A program made the position numbers and the translations under genes. This document shows positions 47,564-64,000 of a stretch of 64,000 bases of DNA, piece by piece. This DNA comes from Agreia sp. COWG (lineage in GTDB: Bacteria; Actinomycetota; Actinomycetes; Actinomycetales; Microbacteriaceae). The notes under the pieces were generated by a model that had not been told where the DNA came from, searched no databases, and saw only the letters and a list, made by a program, of their open reading frames with translations. The stretch spans positions 558,001 to 622,000 of the forward strand of contig NZ_LR882035.1 of NCBI RefSeq assembly GCF_904528075.1, written 5' to 3'. How positions within the stretch are numbered: position 1 is the stretch's first letter; each line of letters starts with the position of its first letter.

Positions 47564-48531
47564 GGGTGCTGGTCACCGGGGCGAGTGGCTTTCTGGGCGG
47601 GGCCGTCGCCGCGGAGATCGCCTCGGCCGGCCACGAGGTGCGCACGTTCCAGCGGCGCCCGTCTGGCGTCTCTGGCGTGACCGACGAGCTCGGATCGATG
47701 ACCCGCGCGGATGATCTCGCCCGGGCCGTCGACGGTGTAGACGCGGTGGTGCACCTGGCAGCGAAGGTGTCGCTCGCGGGCGATCCCGCCGACTTCGTGG
47801 CCGTGAATGTGGAGGGCACACGCTCGCTGATCGACGCGATGACCCGTGCCGGGGTGCCGCGGCTCGTGTTCGTCTCGTCTCCGTCGGTGGCCCATGCCGG
47901 GTCGTCGATCGTGGGCGACGACGCGCTGCCCGCAGACCCCGCGCACGCGAGAGGCGACTACGCCCGCACCAAGGCCAGGGCCGAACTGCTCGCGCTGGGC
48001 TCAGACTCCGACCGTCTGCGCGTGGTCGCCGTTCGCCCGCACCTGGTCTGGGGGCCGGGCGACACGCAGCTCGTCGAGCGCATCGTCGAACGGGCGCGGG
48101 CCGGCAGGCTTCCGCTGCTCGATCACGGTGTGGCGCTCATCGACACCACCTACATCGACAACGCCGCCACAGCCATCGCCCAGGCCCTCGAGCGGGTCGA
48201 CGAGGTGCACGGAAACGCCTACGTGATCACGAACGGCGAGCCGCGCCCCGTCGTGGAGCTGCTGGCGGGAATCTGCGCCGCGGCGGGCGTGCCGGCGCCG
48301 TCCTGGAGCATTCCGGCCGCCGTGGCGCGGGCCGCCGGCTCGGCCATCGAGGCTGTCTGGCGCATCAAGCCCGGGGCCGACGAGCCGCCCATGACCAGAT
48401 TTCTCGCCGAGCAACTGTCGACCGCGCACTGGTTCGACCAGCGCCGCACGCGTCGAGAGCTCGAATGGACGCCGGCGGTCACCCTCGACGAGGGCCTCGC
48501 GCGCCTCGCTGCGCACTACTCGCGCGGCTAA
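47560..48531 (+). CDS. oleD: OleD, NADPH-dependent 2-alkyl-3-ketoacid reductase
   Basis: A 323-residue extended SDR that reduces the OleA product to a 2-alkyl-3-hydroxyacid for OleC. The nucleotide loop is VTGASGFLGGAV, VVHLAAKVSLAG follows, and the catalytic Tyr-Lys pair is in GDYARTKARAE. It starts at a GTG overlapping the oleBC stop (GTGA), completing a tightly coupled oleA-oleBC-oleD operon. A 60-bp REP-like element begins at its stop codon. Confidence 0.9.
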   Translation: MRVLVTGASGFLGGAVAAEIASAGHEVRTFQRRPSGVSGVTDELGSMTRADDLARAVDGVDAVVHLAAKVSLAGDPADFVAVNVEGTRSLIDAMTRAGVPRLVFVSSPSVAHAGSSIVGDDALPADPAHARGDYARTKARAELLALGSDSDRLRVVAVRPHLVWGPGDTQLVERIVERARAGRLPLLDHGVALIDTTYIDNAATAIAQALERVDEVHGNAYVITNGEPRPVVELLAGICAAAGVPAPSWSIPAAVARAAGSAIEAVWRIKPGADEPPMTRFLAEQLSTAHWFDQRRTRRELEWTPAVTLDEGLARLAAHYSRG

Positions 48532-51033: not shown

Positions 51034-51936
51034 ATGAGCCTCACCAAGAAGATCCTGGCCGCAGCAGCCGCCCTTCCCCTGATCGCCGTCCTGGCCGGAT
51101 GCGCCGGATCCTCGGGTTCCTCGGGCGCCGAGAAGGGCTCAGCAGACAACCCGGTGAAGATCGGCGTCGTCGGCGCGAGCGACCCGTACTGGGAGATCTA
51201 CAAGAAGGCGGCCGCCGACGACGGCATCTCGGTCGACATCGTGGACTTCACCGAGTACCCGCAGCCGAACCCCGCGCTCTCTGAGGGCGAGATCGACCTC
51301 AACCAGTTCCAACACATCGTGTACCTGGCGCAGTACAACGAGGCGTCGGGCAGCGACCTCGTGCCCGTCGGAGCGACCGCGATCTACCCGCTCGCCCTGT
51401 ACTCGACGAAGTACGACTCGGTGAAGGACATCAAGAAGGGCGACACCGTCGCCATTCCGAACGACGAGTCGAACCTGTCGCGCGCGCTCCTGGTTCTTCA
51501 GTCCGCCGGCCTCGTCGAGCTGAAGGACGGCGGCAGCATCTTCTCGACCGTCGACGACGTCGACACCGACAAGTCCACCGTGAAGGTGACCACGCTCGAG
51601 GCCTCGCTCACCCCGACCTCGCTTCCCGACGTCGCGGCCGCCATCATCAACAACGACTTCGTCGAGGATGCCGGGCTCACCTTCAAGGACGCCATCGCAA
51701 CCGACGACCCCAACGATCCGAACGCGCTGCCCTACGTGAACATCTTCGCGGCGCGCGCGGAAGACAAGGACAACGCCATCTACAAGAAGCTCGTCGAGAT
51801 CTACCAGAACTCGACCGCCGTCACGGATTCCGCGCAGGAGACCTCGGGCGGAACCGCCGTGTTCGTGAAGACCCCGGTCGCCGACCTCGAGAAGTCGCTC
51901 GAGACGGTGCAGGCCGATATCAAGGCGAAGGGGTAG
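51034..51936 (+). CDS. metQ: Methionine-type ABC transporter binding lipoprotein
   Basis: A 300-residue NlpA/MetQ lipoprotein. The signal peptide ends in the lipobox VLAGC. The mature part has VKIGVVGASDPYWEIYK, EGEIDLNQFQHIVYL, and IYPLALYS with IPNDESNLSRALLVLQSAGL, the standard MetQ pattern. It should bind D- or L-methionine or a related sulfur compound for MetN/MetI. GAAAGGAAG precedes the ATG. A hairpin lies upstream. Confidence 0.92.
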   Translation: MSLTKKILAAAAALPLIAVLAGCAGSSGSSGAEKGSADNPVKIGVVGASDPYWEIYKKAAADDGISVDIVDFTEYPQPNPALSEGEIDLNQFQHIVYLAQYNEASGSDLVPVGATAIYPLALYSTKYDSVKDIKKGDTVAIPNDESNLSRALLVLQSAGLVELKDGGSIFSTVDDVDTDKSTVKVTTLEASLTPTSLPDVAAAIINNDFVEDAGLTFKDAIATDDPNDPNALPYVNIFAARAEDKDNAIYKKLVEIYQNSTAVTDSAQETSGGTAVFVKTPVADLEKSLETVQADIKAKG

Positions 51937-51945
51937 TCGACACAG

Positions 51946-53019
51946 ATGGCCCTCATCAGCCTGCGCGACGTCACCAAGTCCTACCCGCCGGCACAACGCA
52001 GAGGCCCTGCCGTGCATGCTGTCGAGGGCCTCACCCTCGACATCGAGGCCGGCGACATCTACGGAATCATCGGGTACTCGGGTGCGGGAAAGAGCACTCT
52101 GGTGCGCCTGATCAACGCCCTCGAGCACGCCACCAGCGGCAGCATCCTGGTCGACGGGGCCGAGGTCACCCGCATGAGGGAGGGCGAGTTGCGGCGCCTG
52201 CGCCTCGGCATCGGCATGATCTTTCAGCAGTTCAACCTCTTCACCTCGAAGACCGTCGCCGGCAACGTGGCCTACCCGCTGCAGGTGGCCGGCACCAAGC
52301 GCAGCGACATCGCGCCCCGCGTCGCCGAGCTGCTCGATTTCGTGGGACTCGCCGACAAGGCGGGCAATTACCCGGAGCAGCTCTCTGGAGGGCAGAAGCA
52401 GCGGGTCGGCATCGCCCGCGCCCTCGCGACGAGCCCCCGCATCCTGCTCGCCGACGAGGCGACGAGCGCGCTCGACCCCGAGACCACCCACGAGGTGCTC
52501 GCCCTGCTGAAGCGGGTGAACGAGGAGTTCGGCGTCACGATCGTCGTGATCACGCACGAGATGGATGTCATCCAGACGCTGGCCACGAAGGTCGCGGTCA
52601 TGGACGCCGGCCGGATCGTCGAGTACGGCGATGTCTTCGACGTATTCAGCGAGCCGAAGGAGGCGTCGTCGCGACGGTTCGTGTCGACCGTGGTGCGAGG
52701 CGTTCCCTCGGCCGGCGAGCTGGTCGCGCTCGAAGAGCGGCATCCGGGTCGCATCGTGACCCTGTCGTTTCGCGACGGCAACACCTCGCAGGGCGCCGTC
52801 TTCGGCCAGCTGGCTCAGGCCGGGGTCGCGTTCGAGCTGATCTACGGCGGAATCAACGACATCCGGGGGCGCGTGTTCGGCCACCTGACCCTGGCGCTCA
52901 CGGGCGCCGACGACGTGATCGACCGTGCGCTCGCCAGCGTCTCGGCCAGCGTCGTCATCACAGAAGCGCCGCGTCTGGGCACGGAAGCGCAGAGCCACAG
53001 AGGAGCGAACCATGGATGA
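51946..53019 (+). CDS. metN: Methionine ABC transporter ATPase with NIL domain
   Basis: A 357-residue importer ATPase. Walker A is GYSGAGKST, the Q-loop is MIFQQFNLFTSKTV, the signature is LSGGQKQR and Walker B ends LLADEATSALD. The C-terminal 90 residues (VTLSFRDG to VIDRALASV) form the NIL-type ligand-sensing domain that shuts down transport when methionine is plentiful inside. It follows metQ by nine bases and overlaps metI by eight. Confidence 0.95.
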   Translation: MALISLRDVTKSYPPAQRRGPAVHAVEGLTLDIEAGDIYGIIGYSGAGKSTLVRLINALEHATSGSILVDGAEVTRMREGELRRLRLGIGMIFQQFNLFTSKTVAGNVAYPLQVAGTKRSDIAPRVAELLDFVGLADKAGNYPEQLSGGQKQRVGIARALATSPRILLADEATSALDPETTHEVLALLKRVNEEFGVTIVVITHEMDVIQTLATKVAVMDAGRIVEYGDVFDVFSEPKEASSRRFVSTVVRGVPSAGELVALEERHPGRIVTLSFRDGNTSQGAVFGQLAQAGVAFELIYGGINDIRGRVFGHLTLALTGADDVIDRALASVSASVVITEAPRLGTEAQSHRGANHG

Positions 53020-53671
53020 CCTCATTCCCCTGCTGCCGAAGCTCTGGCAGGCCAGCTACGAGACGCTCTACATCGTGGGGCTCAGCCTCATCTTCGGCGG
53101 CCTCGGCGGCCTGATCCTCGGCATCGGCCTGTACACGACCCGCTCGAACAGCCTGTTCTCGAACCGTCCCGTCTTCGGCGTGTTGAACGTGCTGGTCAAC
53201 GTGTTCCGGCCGATTCCCTTCATCATCTTTCTGGCTGCAGCCCAGCCGCTCGCGCGCTTCGTCACGGGCACCGGCATCGGCAACACGGCGATCATCTTCA
53301 CCCTGTCGCTGGCGGCGGCGTTCGGCATCAGCCGCATCGTGGAACAGAATCTGCTCACCGTGCAGCCCGGCGTGATCGAGGCGGCCCGCTCCGTGGGGGC
53401 GAGCCGCAGCCGAATCATGCTGACGCTGCTCATCCCCGAGGCGCTCGGACCGCTGATCCTCGGGTACACCTTCATCGTCGTCGCTCTCGTCGACATGTCC
53501 GCCGTCGCGGGCTACGTCGGCGGCGGTGGGCTCGGCACCTTCGCGATCCAGTACGGGTACCGACAGTTCCACCCCGTGGTCACGTGGGCGGCCGTGTTGG
53601 TGATCATCGTGATCGTGCAGCTCGTGCAGTTCGCCGGAAACTACCTGGCGAGGAAGGCGCTGCGCCGCTGA
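53012..53671 (+). CDS. metI: Methionine ABC transporter permease
   Basis: A 219-residue permease with five to six helices. Family features are ETLYIVGLSLIFGGLGGLILG, the FRPIPFIIFL helix and the coupling loop EAARSVGASRSRIMLTLLIPEALGPLI. It starts inside the metN stop and its 3' end overlaps the convergent FAD-binding gene by 31 bases. Confidence 0.94.
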   Translation: MDDLIPLLPKLWQASYETLYIVGLSLIFGGLGGLILGIGLYTTRSNSLFSNRPVFGVLNVLVNVFRPIPFIIFLAAAQPLARFVTGTGIGNTAIIFTLSLAAAFGISRIVEQNLLTVQPGVIEAARSVGASRSRIMLTLLIPEALGPLILGYTFIVVALVDMSAVAGYVGGGGLGTFAIQYGYRQFHPVVTWAAVLVIIVIVQLVQFAGNYLARKALRR

Positions 53672-55758
53672 GACGGTTCGTCGGCCAATTCGGTGAGGCG
53701 GCGCAGCAGGGCGCGGGCCACCTTGTCGTTCTCCCTGAACGAGATCGCATTGGTGCGCGGCCGCGAGAACGCCCCCACGAACGGCGAGTTCGTGTACGGG
53801 CCGATCGCGTACTGACGAGACGAGTGGTCGCCGCCCGCTCCCCGCAGCCGGGTGTCGAGCTGTCTCACAGAGAGACGGCCCGTGCTGGCCGAGTAGACGC
53901 CGTCGGAGACGATCTCCTCGAGGCCGGTGCCGTTGGTCACCAGCGAGCGAAGCAGCTCGTTGTCGCTGCGGGTGATCGCGGTCTGCGGAAGCCGCGCATC
54001 CACGAGGGCGCTCGCGGTGACGATGTGCGGCGTCGTGGCGCTGCCCGCTCCGAAGAACCCGAACGCCTCGTCTTTCTCGACCCGGATGTCCGCGCCGAGA
54101 AACTCCACGATGCCCGCCTCGCTCAGGGCGACGAGCTCCTCGAGCCGGTGCGCCGGAGGGCCGCTGGCGATGAAGCTGAAATAGCCCGGCCACCAGCCGT
54201 GCAGGTCGCGCACGCGCGAGTGCGGGCTCCACTTGGGCGAATCCACGATCTCGGAAAGTGTGAACAGGCTCGTCAGCAGCGCGAGGAACAGGCCGAGGGT
54301 CGCGCTGTGCTCTGGCGCCGTGCGCAGGCGCAGATCGGCGCGGATGTAGTCGCGCATCCGTTGCTGCAGCTCTGCCGGATCGGCGACGACCAGACCGTCG
54401 AGAGGGCGATCCAGCTCGGGAAGGAACAGTCTGTCCGCAGCATGCGCGACGCTGGATTCCACCAGGTCGACGAAGACCCGCGCGTCACGCGAGATGAGCT
54501 CACCCTCGGGGGAGAGCCCGCGCGCATCCGGAACCGTCTGGCCGCGCGTCGTCGTGGCCGCGCGTGCGGCATCCGTGTGTGGCGCCGCGAGCAGCAGTGC
54601 GCGCGGATCGAGGGCGTCGAAGGCGTTCGCGAACGCATCCCAGCTCGTTTCGACGCGTTCGGGATGCCCCGTGAACAGCTCGCGGTAGTACCCCCACAGC
54701 ATGTCCTTCGCGATGAGGGGCCACACGTCGATGCTGAAATCGAGCTCGGGCAGCGTGGCCTCGAGCTTCGCCGCCACCGCCGGGGTGAAGTACCGCGCGC
54801 TCGGACGCTCACCCGCCAGCGTCGACGAGATCTTCGAGTGATACGGCACGCCCCGGCGGGAGCCGAACAGCAGTCGCGGTTCTTTTCCCGACGGCAGATA
54901 GCGCAGGGCCCCTCGCTCGTCGCGCACGAAGCGCCCGCCCCGCCCTTCGGTGAGCAGCACGGTGAGGTCGACAGCGGCCAGGCCCATGCCGCGCACGATC
55001 ACGCGCTGCCCGGGCACGATCGCGCGGGTGTCGGCGTCGGCCGTGAACGCCGGCGGCAGGTAGAACAGCTCGCGACGCCGCGCAAAATCGATCAGTTCGG
55101 CGTGTTCGTACTCGGCCTCGGCGCCCGTGTGGCCGAGAGAGTAGAGCACGACGTCGGCCGTGAAGTCGGTTCCGTCGTCGAGCCGGATGCGCTGGGTTCC
55201 GTCGCCGGCATCGCCCGCGCCGGGCGCATCCTCGGCTCGCCCATCCGTACGCACATCCACGGCGGATGCGCGGTGCACCACGACGGAGACGGTGCCGGGA
55301 AACAGATCGACGGCCCGGGTGAAGAACCAGCTCAAATAGAGGCTCTGCAGTCGGCGGGTCGGAAAGCTGGCAGGCCCGAGATTCGCGATCTCGGCCGTGA
55401 TGCGCGGGTCGACCGCGGGAATGGCGATCTCGCCGTGCGCGACCAGTCGAGCCCACTCGAGAAGAGACGGCCCGGGCTCGATCGGTCCCTCGATGGTCGA
55501 CGTCTCGTCGGTGAACATCGTGACGTCGGCCGCCATGGAGTTGAGCTTCAGAAGCGGCGACTGCGAATAGCGCCAGATGCGGCCCGGCCCCGCCGGATAG
55601 GGATCGACCATGTGGATGACGAGGCGCTGGCCGGGGGTCCATAGCTCGCCGAGATTGGCGGCGATGCGCTCGAGCACGCCGGCGCCGCGGGGGCCGCCGC
55701 CGAGGATGGCGATCGACGGGGCGGGGGATCGATGAGGGGGAAGGTGCGCGTGCGTCAT
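53641..55758 (-). CDS. Large FAD/NAD(P)-binding protein
   Basis: A 705-residue protein of the FAD-NAD(P)-binding family typified by Pfam NAD_binding_9. The dinucleotide loop opens it (IAILGGGPRGAGVLERIAANL), followed by the family segment RIWRYSQSPLLKLNSMAADV and later VIVRGMGLAAVDLTVLL. The reaction is unknown; relatives occur beside amino-acid transporters and flavin monooxygenases in actinobacteria. It is divergent from the GNAT-permease gene, with a palindrome in the 161-base gap. The ATG at 55758 fits the fold better than a start 24 bases upstream. Its 3' end overlaps metI. Confidence 0.8.
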   Translation of the reverse strand: MTHAHLPPHRSPAPSIAILGGGPRGAGVLERIAANLGELWTPGQRLVIHMVDPYPAGPGRIWRYSQSPLLKLNSMAADVTMFTDETSTIEGPIEPGPSLLEWARLVAHGEIAIPAVDPRITAEIANLGPASFPTRRLQSLYLSWFFTRAVDLFPGTVSVVVHRASAVDVRTDGRAEDAPGAGDAGDGTQRIRLDDGTDFTADVVLYSLGHTGAEAEYEHAELIDFARRRELFYLPPAFTADADTRAIVPGQRVIVRGMGLAAVDLTVLLTEGRGGRFVRDERGALRYLPSGKEPRLLFGSRRGVPYHSKISSTLAGERPSARYFTPAVAAKLEATLPELDFSIDVWPLIAKDMLWGYYRELFTGHPERVETSWDAFANAFDALDPRALLLAAPHTDAARAATTTRGQTVPDARGLSPEGELISRDARVFVDLVESSVAHAADRLFLPELDRPLDGLVVADPAELQQRMRDYIRADLRLRTAPEHSATLGLFLALLTSLFTLSEIVDSPKWSPHSRVRDLHGWWPGYFSFIASGPPAHRLEELVALSEAGIVEFLGADIRVEKDEAFGFFGAGSATTPHIVTASALVDARLPQTAITRSDNELLRSLVTNGTGLEEIVSDGVYSASTGRLSVRQLDTRLRGAGGDHSSRQYAIGPYTNSPFVGAFSRPRTNAISFRENDKVARALLRRLTELADEPSQRRSAFLAR

Positions 55759-55840
55759 GACACAACGGTCGACTTTTCGCACGGAGGAATCGAGTTATGT
55801 GACGGCGAAAGTCCACGTGACGAATTGTGAACAGATTCCG

Positions 55841-55870
55841 TTGGCCGGGTTGCGCCGAGGCACCTAACGT
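55841..55870 (+). promoter_or_regulatory. Candidate promoter of the GNAT-permease operon
   Basis: TTGGCC at 55841-55846 and TAACGT at 55865-55870, 18 bases apart, form a plausible housekeeping promoter. The perfect palindrome just downstream could block it. Confidence 0.4.
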
Positions 55871-55881
55871 CTCTCCCACGT

Positions 55882-55898
55882 GACACGGGCCCCGTGTC
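55882..55898. promoter_or_regulatory. 17-bp palindrome, operator candidate
   Basis: GACACGG at 55882-55888 is mirrored by CCGTGTC at 55892-55898 around GCC, directly after the promoter candidate and 22 bases before the GTG of the fusion gene. No regulator gene is adjacent. Confidence 0.5.
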
Positions 55899-55919
55899 GA
55901 GACAAGAAGGAGGCATCCC

Positions 55920-57548
55920 GTGACGTTGCATGAGCACGCCGTGCAGGCGACCGACCGCTTCGTCTATGTGGCGGCCGACGACGTTCTCGCCGAACCCCTG
56001 CTGAGCGAGCTCGAGAGGGAGTACGACTCGCGCTACGGCGAGTTCTTCGGGGAGAAGGCGTCGGCCGAGATCCGTCGTTATCCGGCAGAGAAGTTCGCGG
56101 CCGTCGAGGGAGGGGCTTTCGTGCTCCTCTTGCGCGGCGGCGTTCCGATCGCCGGCGGAGCCTACAAGAGGTTCGACGAGAACACCGCCGAGCTCAAGCG
56201 CATCTGGACCTCGTCGGCTCACCGTCGGCAGGGACTCGCGCGCCGCGTGGTCGCCGAGCTCGAGGCCGAGGCCCGGCGACGCGGCTACACCAGGGCGTAT
56301 CTCACCACGGGGCCCCGCCAGCCCGAGGCGAAGAATCTGTATTTCGAGACCGGGTACACCCCGCTCTTCGACGTGGCGCTCGACCCCGAAGAGGTGATCG
56401 TGCACGGCTTCGCGAAGAGCCTGGATGGCGCGCCGCTCGACGTGGCAGGCATCACGAGAGCCCACGACGCCAGCCTCGGCCAGCGCCTGTCGAGTAGCGG
56501 TCGCGAGGAACGGGCACCGCGTGTCGAGAACGCATCCGGTGCTCTCGACACGACCGCAGGCGGTCTGATCGACCAGCGTGGAACGGTGAAGGTGGTGCCC
56601 GCACGGCATTGGTGGCGGTGGGTGCTGAGTGCCGTTGTGGCCTTCGTCGTCGCGCAGTTCGTCTGGTCTCTCATCACGAACAAGCAGTACGAGTGGAACG
56701 TCTTCGCCGAGTACTTCCTCTCGGAGTCGGTGCTGAAGAGCCTGGGCATGACGTTCAGCCTCACGCTCATCTCGGTTGCCGGCGGCTTCGTCATCGGCGC
56801 TGTGCTCGCGAACTTCAGGCTGTCGAAGTCGCCGCTGCTGAATGCCGCGGCATACGGCTACATCTGGTTCTTCCGCTCCGTTCCGCTGCTCGTTCAGATT
56901 CTCGTGTGGTTCAACCTCGGTTATCTGTATCCGCAGCTGGGGCTCGGAACGCCGTTCACCACGGACTTCTGGCTCGTGTCGTTCTCGACCACCACGCTCA
57001 TCACGGCGTTCGCGGCGGCGACCATCGGGCTCACCCTGCATCAGGCCGCCTATTTCGCCGAGATCATCCGCGGCGGCATCCTGTCGGTCGACCAGGGGCA
57101 GCTCGAGGCCTCGGCCGCCCTCGGCCTGCCCCGCCGCGTGCGGTTCTTCCGCATCATCCTGCCCCAGGCGGCCAGGGCGATTCTGCCGAACTTCTTCAAC
57201 GAGGTCATCGGGCTCGTGAAGGGAACGTCGGTGGTATTCGTCGTGGCGCTGCCCGAGCTGTTCTACACGGTGCAGGTCATCTACAACCGCAACCAGCGGG
57301 TCATTCCCCTGCTGCTCGTCGCGGTGGTCTGGTACGCGATCATCACGACCGTTCTGTCGATCGTGCAGTTCTACGTCGAGCGTCACTACGCCAGGGGAGC
57401 CCACCGAGAGCTGCCGCCGACGCCGATCCAGCGAGCGATGGGCTTCGTGAGACGGCAGTGGGATCGCCTCGGCGACGAGACGGACGACGACCCCCTCGCG
57501 GCCGAGAAGAACCGCCGCCACGACACGATTCTAGGAAGTGGATCATGA
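55920..57548 (+). CDS. GNAT acetyltransferase fused to amino-acid ABC permease
   Basis: A 542-residue two-domain protein. Residues about 10-160 are a GNAT acetyltransferase: LKRIWTSSAHRRQGLARRVV is the acetyl-CoA loop and AKNLYFETGYTPLFDV the C-terminal strand. A 60-residue disordered linker follows. Residues about 230-500 are a HisM/GlnP-type permease with coupling loop LEASAALGLPRRVRFFRIIL. The frame is open without a break, with AAGGAGG before the GTG. The ATPase gene starts in its stop codon (ATGA), so the permease half is clearly part of an importer. The acetyltransferase would lie on the cytoplasmic side, where it could modify incoming substrate. The domains are sure; the coupling is inference. 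Confidence 0.88.
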   Translation: MTLHEHAVQATDRFVYVAADDVLAEPLLSELEREYDSRYGEFFGEKASAEIRRYPAEKFAAVEGGAFVLLLRGGVPIAGGAYKRFDENTAELKRIWTSSAHRRQGLARRVVAELEAEARRRGYTRAYLTTGPRQPEAKNLYFETGYTPLFDVALDPEEVIVHGFAKSLDGAPLDVAGITRAHDASLGQRLSSSGREERAPRVENASGALDTTAGGLIDQRGTVKVVPARHWWRWVLSAVVAFVVAQFVWSLITNKQYEWNVFAEYFLSESVLKSLGMTFSLTLISVAGGFVIGAVLANFRLSKSPLLNAAAYGYIWFFRSVPLLVQILVWFNLGYLYPQLGLGTPFTTDFWLVSFSTTTLITAFAAATIGLTLHQAAYFAEIIRGGILSVDQGQLEASAALGLPRRVRFFRIILPQAARAILPNFFNEVIGLVKGTSVVFVVALPELFYTVQVIYNRNQRVIPLLLVAVVWYAIITTVLSIVQFYVERHYARGAHRELPPTPIQRAMGFVRRQWDRLGDETDDDPLAAEKNRRHDTILGSGS

Positions 57549-58396
57549 CGACTCCCACGTTCATCCGCTCGTTCGACGAGCAGGCCGTCCCCGTGCCCGT
57601 TCCGTCTTCAGCGAGAACGAAGCCGGCTCGCGCCACGGTCGGCCTGGTCGAGATCACCGCCGTCTCGAAGAGCTACGGTCCCGTGCGCGTTCTCAAGGAT
57701 GTGTCTCTCTCGGTGCAGCCGGGCGAGGTGATCGCACTGATCGGGCCGTCGGGCTCGGGCAAGTCGACGCTTCTTCGCACCATCAACCACCTCGAGACCG
57801 TCGACAGCGGCTCGGTGACGGTCGACGGGCACTACATCGGCTATGAGCTGCGCGGCGACAGGCTGCACGAGCTGCCCGAGAAGGCCGTGCTCGAGCGCCG
57901 CACCCAGATCGGCATCGTCTTTCAGAACTTCAACCTGTTTCCGCACCTCACCGCGCTCGAGAACGTCACCGAGGCGCCGGTCGCGCTGAAGAGGGCGACG
58001 AAGGCCGAGGCCAAAGAACAGGGCAAGGCTCTGCTTGCCCGCGTCGGCCTGGCCGACAAGGAGCAGCACTACCCCCGGCAACTGTCCGGCGGCCAGCAGC
58101 AGCGGGTCGCGATCGCCAGGGCCCTCGCGCTCAACCCGAAGGTTCTGCTGTTCGACGAGCCGACCAGCGCGCTCGACCCCGAGCTCGTCGGGGAGGTGCT
58201 CGACGTCATCCGCGAGCTGTCGACAAGCGGCACCACTCTCATCATCGTGACCCACGAGATCGGCTTCGCCCGCGAGGTCGCCGACCGGGTCGTCTTCTTG
58301 GAGCAGGGAGAGATTCTCGAGCAGGGAACGCCCACGCAGGTGCTGCTGCACCCGCGGCACCCGCGCACCAAGGACTTTCTTCGCAAGGTGCTCTGA
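57545..58396 (+). CDS. Polar amino acid ABC transporter ATPase
   Basis: A 283-residue GlnQ/HisP-type ATPase with an extra N-terminal tail of about 30 residues. Walker A is GPSGSGKST, the Q-loop is IVFQNFNLFPHLTALENV, the signature is LSGGQQQR, Walker B ends LLFDEPTSALDPELV and the switch His is VTHEIGFAREVADR. It overlaps the GNAT-permease stop by four bases and precedes the binding protein by 55 bases, completing a polar amino-acid-type importer. Confidence 0.94.
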   Translation: MTTPTFIRSFDEQAVPVPVPSSARTKPARATVGLVEITAVSKSYGPVRVLKDVSLSVQPGEVIALIGPSGSGKSTLLRTINHLETVDSGSVTVDGHYIGYELRGDRLHELPEKAVLERRTQIGIVFQNFNLFPHLTALENVTEAPVALKRATKAEAKEQGKALLARVGLADKEQHYPRQLSGGQQQRVAIARALALNPKVLLFDEPTSALDPELVGEVLDVIRELSTSGTTLIIVTHEIGFAREVADRVVFLEQGEILEQGTPTQVLLHPRHPRTKDFLRKVL

Positions 58397-58451: not shown

Positions 58452-59477
58452 ATGGCAATCAACAAGAAGCAGATCGGAGCGATCGTCGGCGCCGTCGTCG
58501 TCGTCGCCCTGGCCGGCGGCGGGATAGCGCTGGCCGCCAACGCGAACAGCACCGCGAGGGCCGGCGCGACGTCGGCAGGAACGACGGAGGAACAGGTTGC
58601 GAAGGCAACCTCGTTCGATCTGACGTCGAAGAACGCGGCCGATCGCCCGAGCATCGACCCGGTGGCCGATGCGGTCGCGTCGCTCAAGGCCAGCGGCTTT
58701 CAGCCGATCGAGGCCGGAAAGCTCACCGTCGCGCAGACGGTCGCGAGCGGCGCCCCACCCCTGGTCTTCGCCGCATCCGACGACAACACGACCGCCCTTG
58801 GCAGCGAGGCCGACTTCGCGGCTCTCGTGGCCGACGGTCTCGGCCTGACCTACAACCCGGTGTCGGTGGACTGGGCGGACTGGCCGCTCGGCATCCAGTC
58901 GGGAAAATACGACATCATCTTGAACAACGTCACGGTGACCGAGGAGCGCAAACAGCTGTACGACTTCGCCAGTTACCGCGTCGATCTGCTCGGCTTCTAC
59001 GTGAAGAGCGACAGCACGATCAGCTCGATCACCGAGGCAAACGACATCTCGGGGCTCACCATCATCGTGGGATCGGGCACCAACCAGGAGAAGATCCTGC
59101 TGGCGTGGAATGACGAACTGACCAAGGCCGGCAAGAAGCCCGCCGAGCTCGCCTACTACAACGACCTCGCCGCTGGCAGGCTCGCTATCCAGTCGGGTCG
59201 CGCCGACGCCGAGTTCGGTCCGAACGCGAGCGGTGCCTACTCTGCGGCCGCAACGGGTGACACGAAGCTCGTCGGCACGGTCAGCGGCGGATGGCCCCTG
59301 ACGGCCGACATCGCGGCCGCCACCAAGAAGGGAAACGGCCTGATCGACGCCGTGAACATCGTGCTTAACGCCACCATCGAGGGCGGCCAGTACCAGGAGG
59401 TACTCGACCGGTGGGGTCTCGACAGCGAGTCCGTGCCGACGAGCGAGGTCAATCCTCCCGGACTACCGAAGAGCTAG
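58452..59477 (+). CDS. Amino-acid-type ABC binding protein without lipobox
   Basis: A 341-residue family 3 solute-binding protein. The N-terminus has a basic start and a long hydrophobic stretch (IGAIVGAVVVVALAGGGIALA) but no Cys, so it is either secreted or held by an uncleaved anchor, unlike the two lipoprotein binders in this window. The binding fold is seen in YDIILNNVTVTEERKQLYDFASY, GLTIIVGSGTNQEKIL and LAIQSGRADAEFGPNASG. The ligand is unknown. AGGAGAGG lies before the ATG. It ends 30 bases before a nested palindrome. Confidence 0.9.
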   Translation: MAINKKQIGAIVGAVVVVALAGGGIALAANANSTARAGATSAGTTEEQVAKATSFDLTSKNAADRPSIDPVADAVASLKASGFQPIEAGKLTVAQTVASGAPPLVFAASDDNTTALGSEADFAALVADGLGLTYNPVSVDWADWPLGIQSGKYDIILNNVTVTEERKQLYDFASYRVDLLGFYVKSDSTISSITEANDISGLTIIVGSGTNQEKILLAWNDELTKAGKKPAELAYYNDLAAGRLAIQSGRADAEFGPNASGAYSAAATGDTKLVGTVSGGWPLTADIAAATKKGNGLIDAVNIVLNATIEGGQYQEVLDRWGLDSESVPTSEVNPPGLPKS

Positions 59478-59629: not shown

Positions 59630-60787
59630 TCAGCCGCGGCTCGCGTGCAGGGAGAACAGCGCCGGCGCCGGCCCGACATCGTCGACGAGGTCCGCGAGCA
59701 TCCGTCCGATCGAGGGCGTGAACTTGAACCCATGACCGCTGAATCCCGCGCCGATGCTGAGCGGCCCGACCGAGTCGACGACGAAGTTGGAGTCGGCCGT
59801 CGTCGTGTAGGTGCAGCTGATCTCGACGGGGGAGTCGGAGTCGACTCCGGGCAGCCACTCGTCTGCGTAGCGCTGAAGCGCGGCGAGTTGGTCGGCATCC
59901 GAGCGGAAGGTGCGCGCATCCGGGTCGATGACCTCGCCGGTGCCGTGCCATCCGGCCTTCACACCCTGGCCGGGGGTGAACATGCCGTAGACGTTCGAGT
60001 ACCAGTAGTCGTACGAGCGATCGGTGGGGCTCTGCGCGTGGTTGAAGCCGGGCCAGTCGAGCGATGCGTCGCGAACGGCGAAGTGTGCGGGCTGCTCCTG
60101 TGTGACGACGAGCCGCGGCAGCGCCAGCGACGATCCGACGAGCTTCGCCGTCCAGGCACCGAGGGTGACGACCACCCGTCGGGCGTCGAGCGTGTAGCGG
60201 GCACCGGAGGCCTCGCCGGAGACGGCGTCGACCGGCTGCACCTCCACGAGAACCGAGTCGTCCGACACGACCCGCATGGCGACGACCCGAGAGTGGTGCC
60301 GAACCGAGGCGCCGCCCGCGGCTGCGGCGGACTGCAGTGCCGACACCGCCGCATCCGCGTCGAGCCGACCGGCCTGCGGCGTGACGAGCACGCGGCCGTC
60401 GAACCGGATGCCCGGCCAGCGTTCACCGGCCTCCTCCGGTGTGAGAAAGAAGGCGTCGAAGCCGTACCGCGGCAGCGCCTCGGCGATCGCGTCGAATGCG
60501 GGGTTCGCGCCGTGATTCGCCAACCCCACCTGCTCGAGCACGGACACGCCGGACTCGGCCTCGAGTTCGCGCCAGAGGGGAAGCGCCTCGGCGAGCAGCG
60601 GCAGATAGGTGTCGTCGTCGTAGCTCAGGTTGAAGTTGCGCGACGCCCCGTGTGAGGCACCATTCTTGTGGCCTTGCCCGAAGCGCTCGAGCAGCGTCAC
60701 CTCGCGGCCGCGCCGGGTGAGCTGCCACGCGGCGGCGGAGCCCATGGCCCCGCCGCCGACGACGACAACATCGACGCGCGTGGCCAC
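59630..60787 (-). CDS. solA: Sarcosine oxidase/N-methyltryptophan oxidase-like flavoenzyme
   Basis: A 385-residue FAD amine oxidase of the monomeric sarcosine oxidase (SolA/MSOX) family. The FAD loop is DVVVVGGGAMGSAAAWQL, then LLERFGQGHKNGASHGASRNF. Cys325 in SCTYT matches the cysteine that binds FAD covalently, and GFSGHGFKFTPSIG closes the active site. It should oxidise an N-methyl or secondary amino acid to imine plus hydrogen peroxide. The GTG at 60787 overlaps the stop of the upstream monooxygenase by one base (TAGTG), so the two are translated together. Confidence 0.88.
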   Translation of the reverse strand: MATRVDVVVVGGGAMGSAAAWQLTRRGREVTLLERFGQGHKNGASHGASRNFNLSYDDDTYLPLLAEALPLWRELEAESGVSVLEQVGLANHGANPAFDAIAEALPRYGFDAFFLTPEEAGERWPGIRFDGRVLVTPQAGRLDADAAVSALQSAAAAGGASVRHHSRVVAMRVVSDDSVLVEVQPVDAVSGEASGARYTLDARRVVVTLGAWTAKLVGSSLALPRLVVTQEQPAHFAVRDASLDWPGFNHAQSPTDRSYDYWYSNVYGMFTPGQGVKAGWHGTGEVIDPDARTFRSDADQLAALQRYADEWLPGVDSDSPVEISCTYTTTADSNFVVDSVGPLSIGAGFSGHGFKFTPSIGRMLADLVDDVGPAPALFSLHASRG

Positions 60788-62154
60788 TAAGCAGAAACCA
60801 GCGGCGAAGCAGACGAACGATCCCGCACCGTCGGCAGTCCCAGCGTCTCGTGCAGGGTGGCATTCTCGTCGTAATCGGTGCGGTACACGCCACGCTCCTG
60901 CAGCTCGGGGATCACCAGGTCGACGAACTCGTCGAGGCCGGTGGGGTTGGTGTTCCCCACGATAACGAAGCCGTCGGATGCGTCCTCCTGAACGTGCCGG
61001 TTGATCGTCTCGGCGACGAACGTGGGTGTGCCGACGAAGGTGTGCTTCGCGGCGAACGAGATCACGAGCTCGCGAATAGACCAGCCGTGCGCGGCCGCCT
61101 GCTCTCTCCATGCGTTCGCGGTCGCAATCGGGTCGGTGTGCACGTGGGCGCGGCCCTTCGCTCCGCCCTCCGCGGTGACGACGGGATCGATCGCGGGAAG
61201 CGGCCCCTCGGCGTCGTAGCCCGAGAGATCGGTGTTCCATACCTGCTCGAGAAACGACAGGGCCGTCTGCGGGCTCACCTGCAGCCGCGAGATCTCGCGC
61301 GAGCGCTCGGCGGCCTCCGAGGCGGTGTCGCCCAGGATGAACGTGGCCGCGGGCAGGATCTTGAGCGAATCGCGGGGCCGGCCCACGGCATCCAATCGCG
61401 CCTTCACATCGGCATAGAACGCGCGTCCGGCATCGAACTCCGAGTGCCGAGAGAAGATCACGTCGGCCGAATTGGTCGCAAAGTCGCGGCCGTCGGGCGA
61501 GTCGCCGGCCTGCACGATCACCGGATGCCGCTGCGGACTCGGCGGCAGCGTCGCGTAGCCGGTCACATCGAACTGGGGCCCATGGTGATCGACGAGCCGC
61601 ACACCGGAAGGGCGCACGAACGACCCCGCGGACGCGTCGGCGACGATGGCGTCGTCGGCCCAGCTGTCCCAGAGCTCGCTCGCCACATCGAGGAACTCCT
61701 GCGCCCGGCTGTAGCGGTCGGCGAGGTCGAGAAATTTGCCGCGGCGAAAGTTCGCCCCGTGGAAGGCATCGGAGGTGGTGACGATGTTCCAGCCGGCGCG
61801 GCCGCGACTCAGATGATCGAGCGTCGCGAGCTGGCGTGCCAGCTCGTATGGCTCGTTGAAGGTGGAGCTCAGCGTTCCCACGAGGCCGATGTTCGAGGTG
61901 ACCCCAGCCAACGCGGCGAGGATCGCGAGGGTGTTCGGGCGTCCGACCACGTCGAGGTCGTGGATGAGCCCGCGCGTCTCGCGCAGCCTCAGTCCCTCTG
62001 CCAGAAAGAGAAAGTCGAACTTGCCACGTTCGGCGTTCTGGGCGAAGTGCCGAAACGACGAGAACGCGATCTGGCTGCGGCTTCGTTCGTCGCTCCACAC
62101 CGTGGTGTTGTTCACGCCGGGAAAATGGGCGGCGAGGTGCACGCGCTTGGTCAT
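60787..62154 (-). CDS. NtaA/SnaA/DszA-family FMN monooxygenase
   Basis: A 455-residue luciferase-like monooxygenase of the NtaA/SnaA/DszA group, which use FMNH2 supplied by a separate reductase. Features are FDFLFLAEGLRLR, the GRAGWNIVTTSDAFHGANFRRG segment and PVIVQAGDSPDGRDFATNSADVIF. Known relatives oxidise nitrilotriacetate, dibenzothiophene sulfone and N-acyl or S-containing compounds. It is within a five-gene minus-strand run with four-base overlaps. No flavin reductase is in the window. Confidence 0.9.
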   Translation of the reverse strand: MTKRVHLAAHFPGVNNTTVWSDERSRSQIAFSSFRHFAQNAERGKFDFLFLAEGLRLRETRGLIHDLDVVGRPNTLAILAALAGVTSNIGLVGTLSSTFNEPYELARQLATLDHLSRGRAGWNIVTTSDAFHGANFRRGKFLDLADRYSRAQEFLDVASELWDSWADDAIVADASAGSFVRPSGVRLVDHHGPQFDVTGYATLPPSPQRHPVIVQAGDSPDGRDFATNSADVIFSRHSEFDAGRAFYADVKARLDAVGRPRDSLKILPAATFILGDTASEAAERSREISRLQVSPQTALSFLEQVWNTDLSGYDAEGPLPAIDPVVTAEGGAKGRAHVHTDPIATANAWREQAAAHGWSIRELVISFAAKHTFVGTPTFVAETINRHVQEDASDGFVIVGNTNPTGLDEFVDLVIPELQERGVYRTDYDENATLHETLGLPTVRDRSSASPLVSA

Positions 62155-63389
62155 GAGGTCACGCTCTCTCTCAGTTCAGCCGCATCGTGTGACACGGCGT
62201 AGCGGTTCGCGGGTCGACGAAGGCCCAGGTGCTCGCGCAGCGACGCGGCGTCGACGGGGCGCTCCAGCACGCCGGTCTCGGCGAGCACGGGCACGACGCC
62301 CCGGGTGATGCGCTCGAGGTCGAGGGGCAACCGGGCCGGCCGCAGCCGGGCACCCGACAGGCCGGCCGCCTGCCAGCGCAGTAGTTGGGCGGCCACGTTC
62401 TCGGCGGTGCCGGCCAGAATCAGAGCATCGGATGCGTAGGGCTCGGCGAGCTCCTCGTCGAGCGCCGCGAGGGCGGCCAGGGCTGCCGCGGCGCTGTCCT
62501 CGATGAGCACGACGAGCTCGCCCCAGACACGGAGATCCTCGGGCGCGCGGCGCTCGATCCGCCCCGCGGCGTCGGACAGCTCGTGCAGTATCGTCGCGAG
62601 GTGATCGTCGTCGCGCGGAGTGATTCCCACCACATCGGCCTGCGCGACCGCGAGCTCGTAGGGCACACTCTGATGGGCGAGCACGTAGACGAGCGGCTGG
62701 CCCTGGGGAGAACGCGGCACGATCGACGGACCCTTTACCGCGAAGTTCTCACCCTCGAAGTCGACATAGTGCAGGCGCTCGCGGTCGATGAAGCGGCCGG
62801 TCGGCACGTCGCGGATCACCGCATCGTCCTGCCAACTGTCCCAGAGCCGGCGAGCGACCTCGATCGCGTCGGCGGCCTCGGCGAACAGCCCGCGGATCAG
62901 CGCGGTCTGCACCTCGTCCGATCCGGTCGCCGCCTCCTCGAGGGTGCCGATCTCGCGACGGCCGACGTGGGCGGCCTCGTGGGTGCGGCCCGAGACCTGA
63001 ACGCGCCATCCGGCCCAGCCGTCCGACACGTGGTCGAGGGTCTGGATGCCGGTCGCGGTGTGGAACGGCTCGGTGTGCGTGGTCGTCACTGTCGGCACGA
63101 TGCCGATTCCGCCGAGCTGGGCCGCGACGGTGTTCGCGAGCAGCAGCGCATCGAGGCGACCGCGCACCCTGTCGCCGCGCAGCTCGAAGGCGCCGTAGCC
63201 CTCCGACTGCAATCCGAAGGAGTCCTCGATGCTCACCAGGTCGATGCCGGCATCGCGCGCCTCGGCGACGAGTGAGACCCAGTAGTCGACCTCGAAGAGG
63301 GCCTTGGGGCGGGCAGAGGCATCTCGCCAGGCAGCCGGATGCCAGCCGGCGCCGTCCAGGGCGATTCCGAGGTGGAACGGCGCGGTCAT
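62151..63389 (-). CDS. Second luciferase-like monooxygenase
   Basis: A 412-residue LLM-class protein, diverged from its neighbour. It starts FHLGIALDGAGWHPAAWRD, has DLVSIEDSFGLQSEG and VSDGWAGWRVQVSGRTHEAAHVGRRE, in the positions of the flavin-binding barrel. The C-terminal third replaces the usual end with a long helical region containing RITRGVVPVLAETGVLERPV. It may pair with the other monooxygenase as a heteromer or act on a different step. The ATG at 63389 overlaps the upstream stop (ATGA), and the next gene starts in its own stop. Confidence 0.85.
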   Translation of the reverse strand: MTAPFHLGIALDGAGWHPAAWRDASARPKALFEVDYWVSLVAEARDAGIDLVSIEDSFGLQSEGYGAFELRGDRVRGRLDALLLANTVAAQLGGIGIVPTVTTTHTEPFHTATGIQTLDHVSDGWAGWRVQVSGRTHEAAHVGRREIGTLEEAATGSDEVQTALIRGLFAEAADAIEVARRLWDSWQDDAVIRDVPTGRFIDRERLHYVDFEGENFAVKGPSIVPRSPQGQPLVYVLAHQSVPYELAVAQADVVGITPRDDDHLATILHELSDAAGRIERRAPEDLRVWGELVVLIEDSAAAALAALAALDEELAEPYASDALILAGTAENVAAQLLRWQAAGLSGARLRPARLPLDLERITRGVVPVLAETGVLERPVDAASLREHLGLRRPANRYAVSHDAAELRESVTS

Positions 63390-64000
63390 CGTGGTGCCTT
63401 CTCTCCGGCCTCGATGGCGATCGGCAGCCTGTTCTCGGCCGGGGGAAGCGGGCACGTGGCGAACTCGGTATACGCGCAGGGCAGGTTGGCGGCGCGGGTG
63501 AAGTCCACGGTGACGCGGCCCTCGGCATCCGGTGCCGCTACCTGCAGCGAGCGGTTCGCGGCGTACGTCGTGACGCCGCTGCTCGCGTCCGTGAACAGAA
63601 CGAAGAGCGAGCCGGGCGCCTGTCCGTTGAACGCGGTGAGCCTGAACGTCTCGCCGCCGAGCGAGAACTCGATCACGCCGGGGGAGTCGTAGACGTGCTC
63701 GAGGCCCTCCGCCACGGAACCCACGGTCACCAGCCGAGGCTCGTCGAAGGGGAGGAAGACGCCGTGCGCGACCCAGCGGGGGTCGGCGGGGTAGGCGGGC
63801 GTTCCGGCGTAGTCGACGAGGGTGTGGTGCTCCGGATGCCGCGGGCGCAGAATGTCGTGGCCGCCGCGGCGGGCCACCTCGAGCTCGGCGTCGCCCGACG
63901 TCGCTGTCACGCCGCCGCGCTCGGCGAGCACGCCGAAGGCGTGGCGGCCGGTGAGGGTGCGGCCGTCGACCACGAGGTGTTCGCCCTCGGCCAGGGAGAC
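63386..64000 (-). CDS. DUF1684 protein, 5' end outside the window
   Basis: The C-terminal 204 residues of a DUF1684 protein. The diagnostic end is present: LFVLFTDASSGVTTYAANRSL, then VDFTRAANLPCAYTEFATCP and PPAENRLPIAIEAGEK. The frame is open to the right edge. DUF1684 members are small cytoplasmic proteins of unknown reaction, often beside flavin enzymes. It overlaps the second monooxygenase gene by four bases, so it belongs to the same operon. About 60 residues are probably missing. Confidence 0.85.
   Translation of the reverse strand, partial: VSLAEGEHLVVDGRTLTGRHAFGVLAERGGVTATSGDAELEVARRGGHDILRPRHPEHHTLVDYAGTPAYPADPRWVAHGVFLPFDEPRLVTVGSVAEGLEHVYDSPGVIEFSLGGETFRLTAFNGQAPGSLFVLFTDASSGVTTYAANRSLQVAAPDAEGRVTVDFTRAANLPCAYTEFATCPLPPAENRLPIAIEAGEKAPR

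Follow-up and report, generated by a model that had tools for sequence, protein, structure and literature searches.

A GNAT acetyltransferase and an ABC permease share one reading frame

The window (the whole 64,000-nt stretch of Agreia sp. COWG DNA that was analysed) contains a gene that joins a GNAT N-acetyltransferase to the permease of an ABC importer (Table 1). A sequence-only reading had described one uninterrupted frame holding a complete GNAT domain, a linker of about 60 residues and a complete HisM/GlnP-type permease, and the present analysis agreed on each of these points. The frame was open from a GTG start, directly preceded by an AAGGAGG ribosome site, to a TGA stop. Both halves exceeded the Pfam gathering scores: Acetyltransf_1 (PF00583) matched residues 32-142 (E 1e-14) and BPD_transp_1 (PF00528) matched residues 289-490 (E 3.2e-22). 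The coupling of the downstream ATPase gene was also confirmed, its start lying within the permease stop (ATGA). The fusion protein had no match in a PADLOC search for anti-phage defence systems, and no RNA family reached its gathering score between window positions 48000 and 64000; the RNA family search in 7 of the 20 loci of 19 kb returned SRP RNA and tRNA only.

Table 1 The fusion gene, its parts and its neighbours, in window coordinates
Feature	Position	Strand	Basis
GNAT-permease fusion gene, 542 aa	55920..57548	+	Open frame, Pfam, both halves in listed homologues
GNAT domain, aa 12-168	55953..56423	+	Pfam PF00583, alignment of 38 proteins, dN/dS
Putative acetyl-CoA-type loop R-R-Q-G-L-A, aa 102-107	56223..56240	+	Alignment of 38 fused proteins
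Variable linker, aa 169-230	56424..56609	+	pLDDT, dN/dS, length variation
Extra transmembrane helix TM0, aa 231-253	56610..56678	+	Hydropathy and model helix
Five-helix permease core, aa 269-491	56724..57392	+	Pfam PF00528, model helices, 4yms sequence and fold
EAA coupling loop, about aa 381-405, taken as cytoplasmic	57060..57134	+	Conserved block (38 fused proteins) between model helices
ABC ATPase, TcyN/GlnQ-like, 4-nt overlap with permease stop	57545..58396	+	
Solute-binding protein, family 3	58452..59477	+	
Divergent FAD/NAD(P) protein, NAD_binding_9, related to L-aspartate N-hydroxylase 8CP2	53641..55782	-	
FAD amine oxidase, sarcosine/N-methyltryptophan oxidase-like, start estimated	59630..60775	-	
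Luciferase-like monooxygenase LLM1, TIGR03860, top solved match YtnJ	60787..62154	-	
Second luciferase-like monooxygenase LLM2, 4-nt overlap with LLM1, TIGR03860 score under cut-off	62151..63455	-	
MetQ-MetN-MetI methionine-type importer, neighbour	51034..53671	+	

The fusion recurs and both halves are constrained

In the homologue search, scoring covered the 7998 candidates with the most shared words, and 2932 proteins passed E 0.001. Both halves were present in 53 of the 120 listed homologues, a list that favours full-length matches and in which P0003 is apparently the protein of the window itself. Source names of the fused homologues included Agreia, Leucobacter, Gulosibacter, Cellulomonas and Streptomyces. 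Seven of eight genomes of the genus, the window's genome among them, carried the fusion, and the eighth, an assembly in 260 contigs, gave no match. At the level of the family, 17 of 150 genomes had a match at E 1e-80, four of which were fused. The same join recurred at 49-87% identity across many genomes. The fusion state of the listed proteins follows the gene calls of others; in the eight fused loci checked as DNA, the linker drifted and contained no stop. A spurious join of two overlapping genes through a frameshift or assembly error, the danger named by the sequence-only reading, would need just a small indel at a 4-nt overlap such as that found in nine relatives, but is refuted by these fused homologues and may be set aside.

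Rates of substitution were estimated from six pairs with genus members (L011, missed by the motif search, was left out). The dN/dS ratio was 0.11-0.13 for the GNAT domain, 0.08-0.11 for TM0 and the permease, and 0.29-0.70 for the linker. Low values in both halves and higher ones between them indicate two working domains held by a drifting tether.

The relation between the two genes was followed in 71 permease loci, these being the matches with a locus given (20 further matches had none). Other matches in the window's own genome, namely L002-L008 and four without a locus, lay outside this set, and L086 was dropped as the second piece of the L085 gene. Eight loci were fused, in nine the stop of the GNAT gene and the start of the permease gene shared 4 nt, seven had GNAT and permease in tandem (in L026 with the binding-protein gene between them) and two had the GNAT gene on the opposite strand. 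The remaining 45 loci, which include distant paralogues, had no related GNAT within flanks of about 1.5 kb, a count that speaks against a link between importer and GNAT. In L059 and L152-L156 the GNAT gene lay several kb off or past the FAD gene.

The fusion state changed repeatedly in evolution. It required 11 changes on a tree of 191 rows (61 fused), seven of them forced by starred branches, and seven changes on a tree of 65 rows (18 fused), six of them forced. The smaller tree, a quick one with two long rows, omitted 20 named rows of the 191, rows of 240 residues or fewer and rows sharing more than 86% identity with a retained row of equal fusion state; the direction of the changes, gain or loss, is not resolvable from either tree. 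Some unfused proteins placed next to that of the window, P0025 (320 aa) among them, may be gene calls made too short, and one change fewer would then be needed. A small indel at the 4-nt overlap would fuse the GNAT and permease genes, in which case most of the linker would derive from the N-terminal tail of the permease, a feature also present in unfused permeases such as P0043.

The permease belongs to a polar-amino-acid importer and carries an additional helix

The permease had the hallmarks of the HisM/GlnP type: the BPD_transp_1 domain, a conserved EAA loop, a cognate ATPase and a family-3 binding protein. We take the conserved block at about residues 381-405 to be this EAA loop, facing the ATPase. 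The top NCBIfam models were a cystine permease for the permease and TcyN for the ATPase, both under cut-off, so the system was assigned as a polar-amino-acid importer whose substrate is not nameable from these models. Since there is a single permease gene, the permease probably forms a homodimer. P0050, a relative of 659 residues, unites permease and ATPase domains in a single chain according to Pfam.

The permease core resembled the amino-acid ABC permease 4yms, presumably ArtQ, both by sequence (E 3.8e-20) and by fold. Unlike the fusion protein, 4yms is a 220-residue chain with neither TM0 nor a GNAT domain, and the match started at its residue 16. TM0 is a sixth, N-terminal transmembrane helix that did not figure in the sequence-only reading. 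In ScmN and 4yms the matched region starts too close to the N-terminus to accommodate it; a simple sequence pattern for the TM0 start matched 32 of the 67 unfused listed homologues.

A full-length structure model built on 38 sequences had a mean pLDDT of 74 and a pTM of 0.46, and because of this pTM the relative placing of the domains was not used. Residues 194-227 of the linker had a pLDDT below 50, and linker length differed among fused proteins. With TM0 the permease would have six helices and, the EAA loop being inside, TM0 would start inside, which would put the GNAT domain in the cytoplasm. We infer from the model and from helix parity that the acetyltransferase lies on the side of acetyl-CoA.

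The GNAT half retains a putative acetyl-CoA loop

The GNAT half has an R-R-Q-G-L-A stretch, which we take to be the acetyl-CoA-type loop motif; in the alignment of 38 fused proteins R102 was invariant and G105 was at least 90% conserved. With both the GNAT fold and this loop kept in sequence and model, acetyl-CoA-dependent activity is predicted, and the fear that the GNAT half might lack acetyl-CoA binding was not borne out at this level. The top fold match was 3lod, a putative acyl-CoA N-acyltransferase without an established target. Fold neighbours included, among many other GNATs, the protein acetyltransferases HP0935 and S. lividans PAT. Two GNAT-only proteins, P0136 (217 aa) and P0195 (206 aa), bear the source name polar amino acid transport system permease protein, a name probably carried over from the fused form.

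The fusion lies in a cluster of monooxygenase and flavoprotein genes

Neighbouring genes were compared across 40 loci of 8-19 kb (20 + 20), which were chosen and not drawn at random. Permease, ATPase and binding protein were found in all 40 loci, the NAD_binding_9 FAD protein in 30 and the amine oxidase in 13; at an identity of at least 40%, LLM1 was found in 28, the GNAT in 26 and an SsuD-like monooxygenase in 10. MetQ and MetI accompanied the importer in 3 of the first 20 loci, all from the window's own genus. Sulfur genes occurred singly: L053 encodes a protein like the O-acetylhomoserine/O-acetylserine sulfhydrylases and L067 one like sulfite dehydrogenase, each scoring below its NCBIfam cut-off. 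A third TIGR03860-type monooxygenase, above cut-off, was seen near LLM2 in the same genome, immediately to the right of the window's end (L049:16342-17784, minus strand).

The same GNAT family was also associated with the FAD protein. In a single case (L066:6124-8601, minus strand) it was joined to the C-terminal end of the NAD_binding_9 FAD protein; the two genes were adjacent in the genus mates of L066 (L153-L156), and in L063 the GNAT stop overlapped the FAD gene start by 4 nt. The GNAT reaction may therefore follow or serve the FAD enzyme. The six loci of genus g328 (L159-L164, 16-17 kb) kept the importer, the FAD protein and both luciferase-like monooxygenases, and none had a related GNAT at E 1e-6, indicating that the cluster can do without this GNAT. 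The idea that each g328 locus encodes two FAD proteins was rejected, as the two matches were two pieces of one protein.

Against solved structures, the FAD protein had the L-aspartate N-hydroxylase 8CP2 as its single match (E 1.4e-79). The accessible part of the 8CP2 report names seven residues for aspartate or sulfate binding (PMC10404684). In one pairwise alignment read by eye, R13, R276 and R577 of 8CP2 aligned with R32, R326 and R674 of the FAD protein, while R409, R412, N413 and R416 of the substrate site aligned with T, F, T and S. With three of the seven residues of the Arg/Asn cluster kept and four replaced, all four in the substrate site, the FAD protein likely has another substrate than 8CP2. 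The available portion of a Gordonia sulfur-source transcriptomics study (PMC7661421) held nothing linking its genes to this cluster. No described function could be assigned to this actinobacterial cluster of monooxygenases, N-hydroxylase-like flavoprotein and importer.

The neighbourhood resembles the scm and ytm-ytn operons of Bacillus in outline

According to the accessible parts of two studies, B. subtilis N-acetylates S-modified cysteine with an enzyme encoded alongside an ABC importer as separate proteins, in a scheme that also includes a monooxygenase and a deacetylase; in the scm (yxe) operon for S-(2-succino)cysteine breakdown, an importer of the same family as here, an N-acetyltransferase and an FMN-dependent monooxygenase are encoded together (PMC9706529, PMC12757645). 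Fourteen proteins from the scm and ytm-ytn operons of Bacillus inaquosorum, a relative of B. subtilis, served as our reference. Their gene names are our own assignment, guided by gene order.

The top solved-structure match of LLM1 was YtnJ (E 5.9e-79). Compared with the B. inaquosorum proteins, LLM1 was 39% identical to YtnJ and 36% identical to ScmK, both values falling under the 50% used for close YxeK homologues in the accessible text of PMC9706529. The permease was 34% identical to ScmN of B. inaquosorum, and the ATPase was 47-49% identical to ScmO and TcyN (47% to B. inaquosorum ScmO). BLAST gave no usable match between the GNAT half and either ScmL or YtmI; searched against the 14 reference proteins, a profile of the fused GNATs reached E 6.4e-5 with YtmI and 0.0017 with ScmL. 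At E 1e-6, none of the 40 loci contained a match to ScmP, YtnL, ScmL or YtmI. One ScmP-like homologue of 34% identity was present elsewhere in the genome (L072).

By sequence, the window neighbourhood resembles the scm and ytm-ytn logic in which a compound is acetylated and then oxidised beside an importer. Unlike in scm, the GNAT is fused to the permease and belongs to another subfamily, the 40 loci have no ScmP/YtnL-like deacetylase, and many of them have an extra FAD protein, a second luciferase-like monooxygenase and an amine oxidase. The ytm-ytn system (S-alkylcysteine type; YtnJ, YtmI, TcyJKLMN) shares with the window a cystine-type importer and a YtnJ-like monooxygenase, but in Bacillus it has two permeases and a separate GNAT only remotely like the one described here.

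Permease and tethered acetyltransferase probably serve the same pathway

Because GNAT and permease occur in several relatives as separate genes that touch each other, import and acetylation are probably steps of one pathway. The recurrent and constrained fusion, the kept loop, the cytoplasmic placing and the overlapping separate genes fit an enzyme acting on the permease's cargo. We therefore favour, as an evenly poised reading, a polar-amino-acid ABC importer whose permease is joined to an N-acetyltransferase of the same pathway, the cargo being an amino acid that is S-modified or unusual in some other way. In some actinobacteria the permease of an amino-acid-type importer thus has its own acetylating enzyme attached, probably facing the cell interior.

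In the mechanism that we propose, the binding protein would deliver an unusual amino acid, the permease, probably as a homodimer, would bring it into the cell, and the tethered cytoplasmic GNAT would N-acetylate it with acetyl-CoA. Acetylation would trap and detoxify the compound, as the sequence-only reading had suggested, and make it a substrate for the adjacent luciferase-type monooxygenases, which would most likely free sulfur from an S-modified cysteine-like compound. Were a similar compound imported by the fused importer, a tethered acetyltransferase would make sense as a means of capture and detoxification. Sulfur scavenging is probably the purpose of the system. That the imported molecule is acetylated, what it is and that it serves as a sulfur source are all points that we infer. 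Channelling at the pore exit is plausible and is the least certain step. In its boldest form, the proposal would be an acetyl-CoA-driven, group-translocating ABC importer, a homodimer with two tethered GNATs at its cytoplasmic exit that acetylate every amino acid on its way out of the pore. We put this forward tentatively, as rather unlikely; if true, the free toxic compound would never accumulate and import would be made irreversible.

The alternative that survives best, although we also judge it doubtful, keeps the pathway and drops the channelling. Here the GNAT would acetylate a cytosolic intermediate such as the product of the FAD protein, and the fusion, arisen by a small indel, would merely fix co-expression. 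Hydroxylase/acetyltransferase pairs of hydroxamate siderophore synthesis act on an intermediate in this manner. The match of the FAD protein to 8CP2, its frequency among the loci and its fusion to, or overlap with, the GNAT in L066 and L063 all point this way, and the 4-nt overlaps with the permease gene would make accidental fusion easy. Against it, the fusion has been kept over deep divergence and in several lineages with both halves constrained, and in 24 of the 71 permease loci the GNAT is either fused to the permease or encoded upstream of it on the same strand (one with a gene between).

We consider it improbable that the GNAT is a protein acetyltransferase regulating the transporter or another protein through lysine acetylation. 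HP0935 and S. lividans PAT are among its fold neighbours, but so are many other GNATs; the top match 3lod has no established target, and free-standing relatives of the GNAT occupy the same monooxygenase clusters. Just as improbable is a true scm (S-(2-succino)cysteine) or ytm-ytn system in which acetyltransferase and permease have become fused. The same roles are indeed present (acetyltransferase, permease, ATPase, binding protein and TIGR03860-type monooxygenase), but the FAD protein matched none of the 14 Bacillus reference proteins, and scm membership was rejected on account of the different GNAT subfamily and the missing ScmP-like deacetylase in the 40 loci. With shared gene roles, another GNAT and no deacetylase, the cluster is scm-like in outline and not a member.

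Precedents for coupling import to acylation

For the sugar PTS, the coupling of uptake to an enzyme (group translocation) is well established, and no ABC importer is known to us that chemically alters its own cargo. An importer and an acetyltransferase joined in several lineages offer a test protein for the physical coupling of import and first metabolism, and the fusion marks an actinobacterial cluster that may scavenge sulfur from modified amino acids.

The sequence-only reading knew of no described transporter working in this way. This holds for the protein itself: no covalent GNAT-ABC permease fusion was found in the literature searched, which leaves out most subscription papers. It does not hold for the principle, which is precedented by the separate acetyltransferase and importer of B. 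subtilis and by LplT-Aas, fused into one ORF in some bacteria according to the accessible part of PMC11416262. As described there, LplT-Aas likewise combines a transporter and a cytoplasmic acyltransferase in one operon, import is followed by acylation, a complex is formed and a coupling of the two steps is argued. Unlike the system described here, LplT is a lysolipid flippase and not an ABC importer, the donor is acyl-ACP and the families are unrelated. Pfam found only GNAT-type domains and BPD_transp_1 in the fusion protein, with no LplT or Aas domain, so that the likeness is one of principle. Collectively, the fusion is real and recurrent, was not found described in the literature searched, and has a plausible role.

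Sequence upstream of the fusion gene

A perfect 17-bp palindrome, GACACGGGCCCCGTGTC, was observed between the divergent genes at window 55882-55898, and CACGTGAC occurred at 55814 and 55877. The palindrome was absent from the sister loci checked. In the sister genomes L050 and L051, an SsuD-like monooxygenase gene lies directly 5' of the fusion. The corresponding stretch of the window (55783-55919) has no such gene between a similar leader and the same ribosome-site and start stretch, and its absence between matching flanks suggests that it was lost.
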